DNA of 64,000 nucleotides from Nocardia speluncae NBRC 108251 (lineage in GTDB: Bacteria > Actinomycetota > Actinomycetes > Mycobacteriales > Mycobacteriaceae). Below the pieces are notes generated by a model, which was not told where the DNA came from, ran no database searches, and saw only the letters and a program-made list of their open reading frames with translations. The translations under genes and the position numbers were made by a program. This document shows positions 1 through 4,823 of this stretch, one piece after another; within the stretch, counting starts at the first letter, position 1; each line of letters opens with the position of its first letter. The stretch lies in contig NZ_BDBZ01000007.1 in assembly GCF_001613245.1 (NCBI RefSeq), forward strand, positions 124,001 through 188,000. The letters are read 5' to 3'.

Positions 1-720
1 GCCCGCTTGATTACCGATCCGGCCGTAGGAGTCCGGGCTGTCGACCTTGGTGAGTTTGCCGTCCCGGTAGACCAGGACACCGTTCTCGCAGCCGACGACC
101 AGGGTGTCACCGGCAGCAGTGGCCTCGCCGTGCACCCCGGGACATTTTTCGTTGCGGGCGGTCTCCTTGCGGGCGGTGTCCAGGATCATCATCCCGGTCC
201 GCTCCTCCTCGTTACCGAGGGTGACGGCCAGTTCACCGCTTTCCAATTCCACGGCCACACCGTGATGCGGTTCGGCGGCCTGGTATTCGGTGGTCTCCGG
301 GGCGCCGTCGGCGAGATCGGCCGGAGCGAACGAGATCACTTGTCCGGTGCCGTCCGAGAAAAGCACCGTGCGACCGGCATGTCGGACGACATGCCCCGGT
401 TTCGGACCGGGGAATTCGATATCGGTGAATTGTGCTCCGGCAGCATCGAGCACTTCGAAACCGTTCGTGGTGGAGACGATCACATGCCGATCGTCCCCGG
501 CGGGATTGACCCGGTTGAATCCGCTGAGTTCCACCCCGCCGCCCCGCTCCAAGGTGGTGCCGTCCAGCAGATGGATCCCGCCGTCGTAGGTGACGGCCAG
601 CGGTTCGGCAATCGCGGTCTGGTCGCCGGAGTCGGCGCCGCCGCAGCCGCTCAACGCAACCACTGCGGTGAACAGGCCGGACAGTGCGACCGCTCTTCTG
701 GTGCCGGATCGGTTGTGCAT
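1..720 (-). CDS. aztD: AztD-type periplasmic zinc metallochaperone (partial, runs off left edge)
   Basis: The first 240 residues are visible; the gene continues beyond base 1. The start at 720 gives a lipoprotein signal with lipobox LSGC (Cys26), so the protein should be anchored outside the membrane. The mature part has short beta-propeller-like repeats, and the stretch CPGVHGEA followed by GCENGVLVY is typical of AztD. In the Paracoccus system AztD binds zinc and passes it to the binding protein AztC. It lies 61 bp downstream of aztC on the same strand, and that gap holds a 7-bp GC hairpin (748-771). It is probably co-transcribed with aztB and aztC. The C-terminus cannot be judged. Confidence 0.8.
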   Translation of the reverse strand, partial: MHNRSGTRRAVALSGLFTAVVALSGCGGADSGDQTAIAEPLAVTYDGGIHLLDGTTLERGGGVELSGFNRVNPAGDDRHVIVSTTNGFEVLDAAGAQFTDIEFPGPKPGHVVRHAGRTVLFSDGTGQVISFAPADLADGAPETTEYQAAEPHHGVAVELESGELAVTLGNEEERTGMMILDTARKETARNEKCPGVHGEATAAGDTLVVGCENGVLVYRDGKLTKVDSPDSYGRIGNQAG

Positions 721-781: not shown

Positions 782-1699
782 TCAGGCGGGTGTCAGGCCC
801 GTCACCATTGCGGTGGTGTTGGCGCGCATCATTTCCAGGTAGGTGGCGGCACCTGCGCCGGGCTCGGTCAGGGATTCGGAATACAAACCGACGATCCGCA
901 CCCGGACGCCGGACTGTTCGGCCAGCGCTTGCGCCAGCCGGTCGGGCCGGGACGAATCCACGAATATCGCGGGCACCCCGGTGGTGCGGATGGCGCCGGC
1001 CAGGTCGGCGAGGTCGGCGGCGCTCGGTGAGGCCAGGGTGGTGCCGCCGGGGATTACGGCGCCCACCACTTCGAGATCGAAACGCTGGGCCAGATAACCG
1101 AATACGTGATGGTTGGTGACCAGTTTGCGGTGCTCGGGTGCCACGGTCGCGAAACGCTCGGTCATCCATCGCTGCAGGGCGTCGAGTTCGGTGAGATAGC
1201 GGTCGGCGTTCGCGCGTACGGCGGCGGTATCGATATCGGGTACCGAGGCGATCACCTCGTCGCGGATCACCTCGACCGCCCGAGACACCCGCTGCGGGTC
1301 GGTCCAGAAATGCGGGTCGAGTGTGCCCGCGGAGTCGCCGGTCCGGTAGGGGAGCGGGTCGATCCGGTCACCCACCGGCAGTGCCGGTACCCCGGCCTCG
1401 GCGGCCGCCGTCACATGCCGGGCCAGACCTTCTTCCAGGCCCAAACCGTTCTCGACGACGAGATCGGCCTTGTCGAGCACCGCGGCGTCCTGCGCCGAGA
1501 GTGCAAAGGAATGGGGATCGGATCCGGGCGGCATCAGCACCGCGACCGGCGCCGTATCGCCGACCACGGCGCGGGTGATATCGCCGAGGATATCGGTGGT
1601 CACCACGACCCCGCCGCCCCCGGAATCGGTGATACCGCAGCCGCTCAACGCGAGCACGCCGGCGACGAAGACGGCGCAGATACGGGTGATCGTGGTCAT
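782..1699 (-). CDS. aztC: Zinc ABC transporter substrate-binding lipoprotein AztC
   Basis: A cluster A-I zinc/manganese binding protein of 305 residues. The lipobox LSGC places the lipidated Cys at residue 21. The expected zinc ligands are in place: His63 (SDPHSF), His130 (LDPHF), His197 or His198 (TNHHVFG) and Asp248 (FVDSSRPD), the three-His-plus-Asp set known for AztC. There is no ZnuA-like His-rich loop, which fits a protein loaded by a chaperone. Its ATG overlaps the stop of the upstream permease gene (ATGA), so translation is probably coupled. It should capture zinc and hand it to the AztB permease domain. Confidence 0.88.
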   Translation of the reverse strand: MTTITRICAVFVAGVLALSGCGITDSGGGGVVVTTDILGDITRAVVGDTAPVAVLMPPGSDPHSFALSAQDAAVLDKADLVVENGLGLEEGLARHVTAAAEAGVPALPVGDRIDPLPYRTGDSAGTLDPHFWTDPQRVSRAVEVIRDEVIASVPDIDTAAVRANADRYLTELDALQRWMTERFATVAPEHRKLVTNHHVFGYLAQRFDLEVVGAVIPGGTTLASPSAADLADLAGAIRTTGVPAIFVDSSRPDRLAQALAEQSGVRVRIVGLYSESLTEPGAGAATYLEMMRANTTAMVTGLTPA

Positions 1700-4092
1700 C
1701 GGCCGGTCTCCACCATCAGGTCGGGGTCGATATCGAAGGAGAAGGTGCGTGCCACGCGCAGATCGTCGGCGTAGTCGATTTCGTGGACCTCGCGGCGGGC
1801 CGGATCGTTGAGGTAGGCGCGCTCGGAATCCACCAGCAGTACCGGTGCCACAGCCGGATCCACGGGTGCGGAAAGTACGCGGTGGTAGGCGGTTTCGGCG
1901 CCGGTGGCCGGATCGTAGGCGTGCAGTACACCGTCGGGAGTGAGGGCGAGAATCGCGGTCCCCGCACCCGCCGTGGTCGCGGCGGTCACCGGTCCGGTCT
2001 CGACCGGCCGCCAGGCCCGCCGGGCGATATCGAGTACCAGAACCCGCGAATCCCGGACCGTCACCAGGACATCGCTGCCCGGACGGTGGTGGAAATCGGC
2101 GACGCTCCCGGTCGTCCCGGCGGGATACGGCAGCTTTTCGGCCGTGAAACGGTCGTCGCGCTCGGTCACCAGCAAGGCTCCGTCACCGCAGGAGAAGACC
2201 GCGCCGCGCCGGGTCACCGTGGTTCCGCCGGGATCGGGGCACGGCGGTGTCAACGTCTCGACGGGCTCGTTCTCCCGGGTGCGGACCTCGACCTGCGCCG
2301 ACCCCGGGGCCGCGACGAGCAGGTGTCCACCGTAGGGAACCGCAACTCCCTTCACCACCGGGCCGGTACGCAGCTCCCCCTCATCGAGAGCTGCGCGGTC
2401 GGCCGGCACGGTGGATCCGGTATCGAGTACCGCGGCGGACACCACGGGATCGCTGTGCGCCGACCGGACAGATCCGTCGACGACCCCGATCCGGCGCGGC
2501 TGCGTCCGGTAGTAGTGCACATGATCACCGTGGTCGACGACCCAGCTACCGCTGTCCACCACGGTGGTCGCGTCGCCGGCGGCGAGATAGGCGTAACGCC
2601 CGTCACCCGCGACTCCGGTGACGCCCGCGACCGGCTCCAGATCCGCGATCTCCTCGGTCACCACATCGAGTAGCCGGACCGCACCCGAGCTCCGGTCGGC
2701 GATCACCAGACGCGGCTGCGCGCTCGCACTCTCTTCGGCACCCTCCACATACCCGTGCGGGACCGGTTCGGCCGGTTCCTCGCTACCGCAGGCGGCGACC
2801 GGAACCACCAGCAGTCCGGACAATGCCACTCGTGCAAGGGTTTGCCTGCTCAGAGGTCGCGGGGTCCGGCGGGCCCGTCGCGTCTTCCCCGGCGGGGAGG
2901 TGTCGAGCGCGGAGTTACCAACGTGCGGGACGACCGGACCGCAGGAACCGGTCCGGGGGCCCGGTGAACCGAGGCCGTCCATCGCGGCGGCCGCATCGGT
3001 TGCTCGGGGTGTACGACCCGCTACGGGGGCCGCGCCGGCAGCATCTTCATCGCGTCCATCTGATCGGGAGCAGTGCACACCTCCGGCCGCGGCGCTTCCG
3101 CGCCCGGCGGCGCTTCTTCCGGCCGGTTCCGGCGCTTCCGTACCGATGCCGGCTCCGGCCGGTTCGGATACACCCATACCTGTGCTGCCCGGCGCGGAGC
3201 TTCCGGCATCTTTTCTCGCCGGTGCCAGGCCGCCTCCACTGCCTCCTCCGGGGCCGCCGGTTCCGGTGCGCGCCCGCACCGCGCTGCGAACGCGCGCTGC
3301 CAAGGCGGAGAGGAAGAAGACCGTGACCGCGGTCAACGCGATGGTCGCCCCGGCCGCGGTGCCCGCATGCCAGGAGACCAAAAGCCCTACCACGGTGGAC
3401 AGCGCGCCGATTCCGGCCGCCAGCACCATGATCCGTGGGATGCGGTGCGTGAAATAGGTCGCCGCGGCCGGGGGAGCGACGAGTAGGCCCAGGACCAGCA
3501 GGGTGCCCACGATATGGAACGACGCCGCGATCGCCAGCGTGAGCAATGCGAGCAGGGCGACCTGCGCGGCGCGCGGTCGCAGCCCGAGCGTATGGGCGGT
3601 ACGCGGGTCGAAGCTGAGGGCGACGAAGGCGCGATGCCCCGTCACGGTGATCACCAGTGCGAGCACCAGTGCCGCGAGCAGGAAGAGTAGATCGCCGGGC
3701 CGCGTGGCGAGGACATCGCCGAACAGGAATCCGGTCAGGTCGACCGCGAACGATTGCGACCGTGATATCAGGATCACCGCGGTGGCCAGCATCGCCACGA
3801 ACAGCAGCCCGATCCCGGTATCGGTGGACAACCGGCGGTTGCGGCTGAGCACCGATACTCCCGCTGCCATGGCCGACGCGCTCACCAGCGCACCGAGTAG
3901 CAGGTTTCCGCCCAGCAGCGCGGCCACCGCTACCCCGGGCAGCATGCCGTGCGCCAAGGCCTCTCCGAGAAAAGCCATGCCCCGCACCACAACCCACGTA
4001 CCGGCGAGGGCGCACAGGCACGAGACCAGCAGTCCGCCCCAGAGAGCCCGTTGTACGAATGAAACCTCGAACGGGGCGATCAGCCAATCCAT
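1696..4092 (-). CDS. aztB: AztB zinc permease fused to a beta-propeller lipoprotein-like domain
   Basis: One open frame of 798 codons from ATG 4092. Residues 1-275 are a ZnuB/AztB-type permease with about eight membrane segments. Residues 275-415 are a Gly/Ala/Pro-rich, poorly conserved linker. Next comes a hydrophobic stretch ending in the lipobox VAAC (Cys435), then about 360 residues of AztD-like propeller containing the His-rich motif DHGDHVHYY. An even number of membrane segments would leave the linker inside and let the second signal export the propeller. The second half may instead be a separate gene: an in-frame ATG lies at 2982 but has no clear ribosome site. An upstream in-frame ATG at 4125 falls inside the operator and is unlikely. 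The gene looks leaderless, with TACAGT at 4106-4101 close to the ATG. Confidence 0.75.
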   Translation of the reverse strand: MDWLIAPFEVSFVQRALWGGLLVSCLCALAGTWVVVRGMAFLGEALAHGMLPGVAVAALLGGNLLLGALVSASAMAAGVSVLSRNRRLSTDTGIGLLFVAMLATAVILISRSQSFAVDLTGFLFGDVLATRPGDLLFLLAALVLALVITVTGHRAFVALSFDPRTAHTLGLRPRAAQVALLALLTLAIAASFHIVGTLLVLGLLVAPPAAATYFTHRIPRIMVLAAGIGALSTVVGLLVSWHAGTAAGATIALTAVTVFFLSALAARVRSAVRARTGTGGPGGGSGGGLAPARKDAGSSAPGSTGMGVSEPAGAGIGTEAPEPAGRSAAGRGSAAAGGVHCSRSDGRDEDAAGAAPVAGRTPRATDAAAAMDGLGSPGPRTGSCGPVVPHVGNSALDTSPPGKTRRARRTPRPLSRQTLARVALSGLLVVPVAACGSEEPAEPVPHGYVEGAEESASAQPRLVIADRSSGAVRLLDVVTEEIADLEPVAGVTGVAGDGRYAYLAAGDATTVVDSGSWVVDHGDHVHYYRTQPRRIGVVDGSVRSAHSDPVVSAAVLDTGSTVPADRAALDEGELRTGPVVKGVAVPYGGHLLVAAPGSAQVEVRTRENEPVETLTPPCPDPGGTTVTRRGAVFSCGDGALLVTERDDRFTAEKLPYPAGTTGSVADFHHRPGSDVLVTVRDSRVLVLDIARRAWRPVETGPVTAATTAGAGTAILALTPDGVLHAYDPATGAETAYHRVLSAPVDPAVAPVLLVDSERAYLNDPARREVHEIDYADDLRVARTFSFDIDPDLMVETGR

Positions 4093-4109: not shown

Positions 4110-4127
4110 TGATAACGATTGTCATTA
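4110..4127. promoter_or_regulatory. Zur/Fur-family operator between aztA and aztB
   Basis: The sequence TGATAACGATTGTCATTA is a near-palindrome of the Zur/Fur type. It sits in the 59-bp gap between divergent aztB (start 4092) and aztA (start 4152). On the plus strand it runs into TACAAG, a possible -10 for aztA; on the minus strand it lies just upstream of TACAGT, a possible -10 for aztB. A repressor here could shut both transcripts. The neighbouring zinc genes favour Zur over FurA or IdeR. It closely matches the box at 20907-20924. Confidence 0.75.
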
Positions 4128-4151: not shown

Positions 4152-4823
4152 ATGCGCACGGCGGATATCGAAATCACGGGCCTGTCGGCGGGATACCGGG
4201 ACAACCCGGTGTTGCGCGACGTCACGGCGGCCCTGCCGGGCGGCCGGGTGACCGCGCTGATGGGCCCCAACGGCTCCGGGAAATCCACCCTGCTCGCGGT
4301 GCTCGCGGGCATTCTGGCACCGTCGGCCGGATCGATCGCCCGCCCCGGCGCCCGGCGCCCGGCGCTGGTTGTCCAGCAGCAGTCGGTCCCGCCCACCCTG
4401 CCCATCACGGTCGCCGAAACCGTCGCCATGGGTCGCTGGGCGCAGCGCGGTTTCTGGCGCCGCCTCACCCGCGCCGACCGGGCAGTGGTCGCGGAGTGCT
4501 TGGCGCGCATGGATATCGCCGACCTCGCCGGCCGTCGCCTCGACACCCTGTCCGGTGGTCAGCGCCAGCGTGTCCTGCTGGCTCGCGCACTGGCGCAGCA
4601 ATCGGACCTGCTGCTCCTCGACGAACCGAGCACAGGTTTGGACTCTTCGGCCCAGGAGGCCATCGGTTCCGCAGTCCGGGAGGCCGCGGCATCCGGGGTC
4701 ACGGTCGTGCACGCCACTCACGATCTCGCCGATGTCCGGCACGCCGACCACTGCGTTCTGCTGCGCGGTGGGCGCGTGGTGGGAACGGGTGAACCCGGGG
4801 TCGTTCTCGCCCCGGTGGCGTGA
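4152..4823 (+). CDS. aztA: Zinc ABC transporter ATP-binding protein AztA
   Basis: A 223-residue ABC ATPase with Walker A GPNGSGKST, signature LSGGQRQR, Walker B LLLLDEPSTGLD and an H-loop His in HATHD. It should power zinc import by the AztB permease domain. The ATG at 4152 follows GGGAG at a good distance; an upstream in-frame ATG at 4119 lies inside the operator and is rejected. It is transcribed away from aztB, aztC and aztD, so the transporter is split into two divergent transcripts under one Zur-like box. Confidence 0.88.
   Translation: MRTADIEITGLSAGYRDNPVLRDVTAALPGGRVTALMGPNGSGKSTLLAVLAGILAPSAGSIARPGARRPALVVQQQSVPPTLPITVAETVAMGRWAQRGFWRRLTRADRAVVAECLARMDIADLAGRRLDTLSGGQRQRVLLARALAQQSDLLLLDEPSTGLDSSAQEAIGSAVREAAASGVTVVHATHDLADVRHADHCVLLRGGRVVGTGEPGVVLAPVA

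Follow-up and report, generated by a model that had tools for sequence, protein, structure and literature searches.

How a membrane permease and an exported protein came to share one reading frame, and in what form the exported part takes up its place, is the question raised by a gene in a 64,000-nucleotide stretch (hereafter, the window) of the genome of Nocardia speluncae NBRC 108251. The minus-strand frame 4092-1696 encodes a single protein of 798 amino acids, which comprises an AztB permease, a linker, a lipoprotein-type signal and a propeller of predicted AztD fold. The gene probably encodes the permease and a chaperone of an AztABCD-type zinc importer as one natural polyprotein, equipped with a working internal lipoprotein signal. 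The fuller reading, whereby the polyprotein is cut at the internal lipobox by signal peptidase II and the AztD-fold proteins of the locus divide the site-2 donor and site-1 functions between them, is put forward at about even chances. No paper on an AztB-AztD fusion was found in the literature searched.

The joined frame and its locus

The frame is open from position 4125 to a TGA at 1696-1698, and its start at 4092, MDWLIAPFEVSFVQ, is conserved. In DNA so rich in G+C an open frame alone is little evidence, and conservation of phase was used as the argument against chance. The features of the locus are listed in the Table.

Table. Features of the fused gene and its neighbours (positions in the window; residue numbers refer to the fused protein)
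Feature	Position	Strand	Basis
aztD 5' part, second propeller, lipobox ALSGC, runs past window edge	1..720	-	NF038015, 259 bits (aztD truncated)
aztC, zinc-binding protein with a conventional N-terminal lipobox (ALSGC)	782..1699	-	NF040870, 380 bits (cut-off 350)
AztD-like propeller, mature part, residues 436-798	1699..2787	-	AlphaFold2, fold comparison
DHGDHVHYY, residues 520-528, predicted equivalent of AztD zinc site 2	2509..2535	-	Profile alignment with 6cmk, 6ck1
Internal signal of lipoprotein type, residues 417-435, made up of a hydrophobic core and the lipobox VAAC, Arg-rich stretch before	2788..2844	-	Lipobox Cys in 54/54
Low-complexity Gly/Ala/Ser/Pro/Arg-rich linker, residues 266-416	2845..3297	-	Ka/Ks, frame stop counts
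AztB permease domain, ABC-3 family, residues 1-265	3298..4092	-	NF040871, PF00950
Predicted Fur/Zur-type 7-1-7 palindrome TGACAATCGTTATCA, between the divergent aztA and aztB	4110..4124	-	18-32 nt upstream of aztB
aztA, ATPase, divergent	4152..4823	+	NF040873, 266 bits (cut-off 220); same layout in nearly all related loci

Much of what the initial annotation had read from the letters was confirmed. The permease half of the joined frame is AztB, since residues 2-255 match NF040871 with 353.8 bits (cut-off 280), and the other half has the predicted fold of AztD. The second propeller gene, aztD, lies downstream as described, and the low-complexity linker is present, although its length, given as about 140 residues, is 151 by the borders used here. 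The PF00950 match of the AztB domain reaches 202 bits, and its nearest solved chains are PsaC (7kyo/7kyp) and ZnuB (9oko). Both aztA and aztC adjoin aztB and exceed their family cut-offs (NF040873 and NF040870). The start of aztC overlaps the stop of the fusion by 4 nt (ATGA), and aztC, then aztD, run in the same direction as the fusion; the DNA of aztD beyond the window edge was read as L084.

The order aztA (divergent)-aztB-propeller-aztC-aztD is common to nearly all related loci, across which the Fur/Zur-type palindrome also keeps a nearly fixed spacing from aztB. With five mismatches or fewer it was found in 79 of the 80 loci, mostly starting at -28 to -38 from aztB, compared to the 6-8 mismatches usual in shuffled sequences. 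Like the AztABCD system of Paracoccus denitrificans, for which Zur control has been reported (PMC6689063), the locus brings together AztA, AztB, AztC and an AztD-fold zinc protein, with a Fur/Zur-type site upstream. Unlike that system, aztA is divergent, and a single AztD is replaced by two predicted one-site AztD-fold proteins, one of which is fused to AztB. The same genome contains two further ABC-3 type permease matches (G000:C12:73666-74499, 32% identity, and G000:C33:136371-137294, 28%, the latter spanning a TAG); thus, the genome may have metal permeases of this family besides AztB.

Recurrence of the fusion and drift of its linker

Comparison of the locus in related genomes, which the initial annotation had proposed, revealed both fused and split states. 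The propeller was used as the query over GTDB genomes, yielding 80 loci; 33 of these are fused, in addition to the window, and the tree comprised 78 rows, window included, of which 34 are in-frame fusions. The 54 distinct in-frame fusions belong to Nocardia, to Lentzea/Saccharothrix and to single species of Amycolatopsis and Prauserella, and a fusion (L123) was also found in a different genus of the same family as Nocardia. In a sample of 59 Nocardia genomes the propeller was present in 39, where 30 loci read fused, one is cut by a contig and one is split (L093, genome G010). Outside the fused clades, two separate genes are found in many actinobacteria, and in split relatives the propeller usually starts near the aztB stop, often with a 4-nt ATGA/GTGA overlap. 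The fused state requires at least four changes on the tree, three of them forced by well-supported branches, which indicates that the fusion was gained or lost repeatedly. One locus, L070 of Pseudonocardia nigra, was excluded from the trees: its aztB match ends after residue 193 while the propeller frame continues to 9255, possibly reflecting a broken aztB or an assembly error.

The two-gene state of so many actinobacteria might suggest that a sequencing or assembly error has removed a stop, or that two genes were wrongly joined. Such an artefact is, however, ruled out, since independent assemblies give 54 distinct proteins with the same joined frame, and we assign it a negligible probability.

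The linker provides a second line of evidence. It is expanded only in the N. carnea/flavorosea group; elsewhere among the fused species analysed, the equivalent stretch has 11-31 residues. For pairs within that group, the Ka/Ks of the linker is 0.48-1.15, compared to about 0.1 in the permease and propeller; thus, the residues of the linker would hardly matter. Across seven close relatives, its fused frame contains no stop and the two other frames contain 21 between them; because the rows are related, these counts serve as supporting evidence and not as a formal probability. In the cleanest pair (L004-L005), the linker gaps measure 174 nt and 9 nt, each divisible by three. These sequences indicate that the linker drifts almost freely while its frame is kept, and such conservation of phase across relatives makes a chance open frame unlikely. 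The AztB-propeller fusion is, by the same comparisons, real, recurrent and evidently under selection for the in-frame state.

A lipoprotein-type signal inside the fused protein

The complete lipoprotein signal described by the initial annotation was upheld. The lipobox VAAC occupies residues 432-435, with the codon of Cys435 at 2788-2790, and it is the lipobox, rather than the Cys alone, that is kept in all 54 distinct fusions; in the 34 aligned fusions, Cys435 is the sole invariant residue between F259 and P445. In each of the 54, a positive stretch (net charge of at least +2) is followed by a short hydrophobic core (11-20 residues, median 16) and then by the lipobox Cys; the core of split lipoproteins has a median of 14. 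The signal is not N-terminal: it begins at about residue 417 of 798, without a conserved start before it. The retained lipobox and the short core point to lipidation and probable cleavage, and cleavage would free the propeller from the permease.

In an alternative arrangement, the propeller would be exported but left uncut, hanging permanently from the permease, like the binding domains of GlnPQ and OpuA, by a hydrophobic segment that acts as a transmembrane anchor. A conserved, recurrent fusion would be expected in this case as well, fused binding domains being an established design of ABC importers (PMC8025302), and the Cys could carry a lipid without cleavage. A tether of this kind fits less well with the conservation of the whole lipobox in every fusion, with a core that resembles that of the split lipoproteins and not a full-length anchor, and with the presence of Lsp in the genome. 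Cleavage is consequently ranked as more likely, and a permanent tether as unlikely, albeit the foremost of the competing explanations. The initial annotation had envisaged a permease with its own tethered chaperone and an internal export signal: the conserved and recurrent fusion, the invariant Cys and the 11 fusions that lack a usable start argue for this proposal, in which the word "tethered" is the uncertain part.

Those 11 fusions, of which the window's is one, lack an ATG, GTG or TTG at 14-40 codons before the Cys, where every split relative analysed has one. The initial annotation had also suggested that the second part is translated alone from ATG 2982. This codon, 64 codons before the Cys, was rejected as an internal start, having no Shine-Dalgarno match and being replaced by Ile in the three closest relatives. 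With no start near the signal and ATG 2982 not conserved, all of the propeller encoded in the window most likely comes from the fusion. In the Lentzea/Saccharothrix fusions (L017, L022-L027), a shared GTG, preceded by a weak AGGT, lies 25 codons ahead of the lipobox Cys, and a second product by internal start is possible in that clade only. This GTG, along with the two-gene state, start codon and ATGA/GTGA overlap widespread among relatives, could imply that the fusion is made but that most of the propeller arises by internal initiation in the linker, the joined frame being incidental. An incidental frame should be broken by linker indels, yet it is kept; the 11 fusions and the features of ATG 2982 likewise speak against two products, and we consider them improbable.

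The orientation of the permease is consistent with export of what follows it. The alignment of AztB with FecCD permeases extends almost to the C-terminus of the latter, and the C-terminal end of BtuC is cytoplasmic; by homology to FecCD/BtuC-type permeases, by charge and by the logic of the signal, the C-terminus of AztB would be cytoplasmic as well, which fits the Arg-rich tail and the subsequent export signal. In the full-length AlphaFold model, the pLDDT of the permease part is mostly below 60, too poor for topology, and no useful paper on PsaBC topology was found in the literature searched. The favoured scheme of a cleaved polyprotein would thus begin with AztB inserted so that its C-terminus faces the cytoplasm; the Arg-rich linker would remain inside the cell and the internal signal would export the propeller. 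The genome carries one Lgt gene and one Lsp gene, whose products would, respectively, lipidate Cys435 and probably cut before it. From one translation event, permease and propeller would emerge in equal numbers, the propeller as a membrane-anchored lipoprotein beside the transporter.

Parts of this design have parallels elsewhere. In the cytochrome b-c1 polyprotein of Bradyrhizobium (fbcH), a polytopic membrane protein and an exported one reportedly share a precursor that contains an internal signal and is cut by type I signal peptidase, whereas the signal of the Nocardia fusion is of the lipoprotein type. In GlnPQ and OpuA an extracytoplasmic ligand-binding domain is also covalently linked to the transmembrane subunit, but the fused part in Nocardia is a chaperone-type propeller, the binding protein AztC is not part of the fusion, and a full lipobox is retained at the joint. 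AdcA is a further case in which a transporter component carries a fused accessory zinc protein (PMC6689063); the partner there is, however, the binding protein, while that in Nocardia is the permease, and the signal is internal.

Two zinc sites apparently divided over two proteins

The fused propeller (residues 464-789) matches the AztD family NF038015 only weakly, at 54-57 bits against a cut-off of 400, and is described here as AztD-like and not as AztD proper. A phmmer search of the propeller against the PDB gave no match. Its AlphaFold2 model (pLDDT 93.3, pTM 0.91) suggests the AztD fold, the best solved matches being AztD itself (6ck1, 6cmk and 6n01; Z 33 over 341 residues), followed by the next family at Z 23. 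Identity to these structures is about 20%.

The AztD of Paracoccus has two zinc sites: site 1, formed by His124, His167 and His218 in the pore, and site 2, formed by His99, His102, Asp104 and His408 on a protruding extension, from which zinc is handed to AztC; with the exception of His408, the ligands of both sites are present in at least 95% of AztD homologues (PMC6689063). A profile of 79 propellers was aligned to the solved AztDs (hmmsearch against 6cmk and 6ck1), and its invariant HxDHxH aligns with site 2 of both. His86, Asp88, His89 and His91 of the mature propeller are invariant in 79/79; compared to His99-Gly-Asp-His102-x-Asp104 of AztD, the HGDHx motif is shared and a His stands in place of Asp104. 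In the same alignment, the C-terminal ligand His408 has no match in the propeller, the positions of His167 and His218 have no conserved His, and a His near the first site-1 position occurs in 40/79 only. DHGDHVHYY, which the initial annotation took for a likely zinc site, is thereby aligned with one of the sites in the crystal structures, while the other site of AztD is missing from the propeller.

The opposite pattern is seen in the downstream AztD. The protein of the window has the site 1 motifs PGHVV, PHHGVA and CPGVHGEA and, by alignment to 6cmk/6ck1, no site 2 motif. Among the 79 loci, PGHV appears in 77, HHG in 79 and C-x-x-x-HG in 78, and the site 2 motif in none. Both sites are present in single-copy AztDs of other actinobacteria and in the propeller of Nocardia G010. 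In the tree, which is quick and unrooted with some long branches, the clades of the propeller and of AztD both group with two-site proteins, so that each appears to have lost the opposite site. The alignments thus suggest that the sites of AztD are divided over two proteins, site 2 being kept by the fused propeller and site 1 by the downstream AztD. This apparent division is the more surprising part of the finding, and no description of such an arrangement was found in the papers searched. By analogy with site 2 of Paracoccus AztD, AztC would receive its zinc from the fused propeller, and the site-1 function would fall to the separate AztD.

The G010 locus (L093/L138) has a split aztB, one two-site propeller and aztC, and the roughly 4 kb downstream contain no second aztD; it offers a naturally occurring control, with one AztD, for the systems that have two.

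Relative to the known AztABCD importer, we rate as new both the putative permease-chaperone polyprotein and the apparent split of the two zinc sites of AztD. The fusion would fix the permease:chaperone ratio at 1:1. Studies of lipoprotein maturation normally deal with N-terminal signals, and a conserved internal lipobox behind a polytopic permease provides a natural test of Lgt and Lsp acting inside a precursor. If the division of sites is true, the donor (site 2) and site-1 functions sit on different polypeptides, which would make the question of the purpose of site 1, posed for AztD in PMC6689063, testable.
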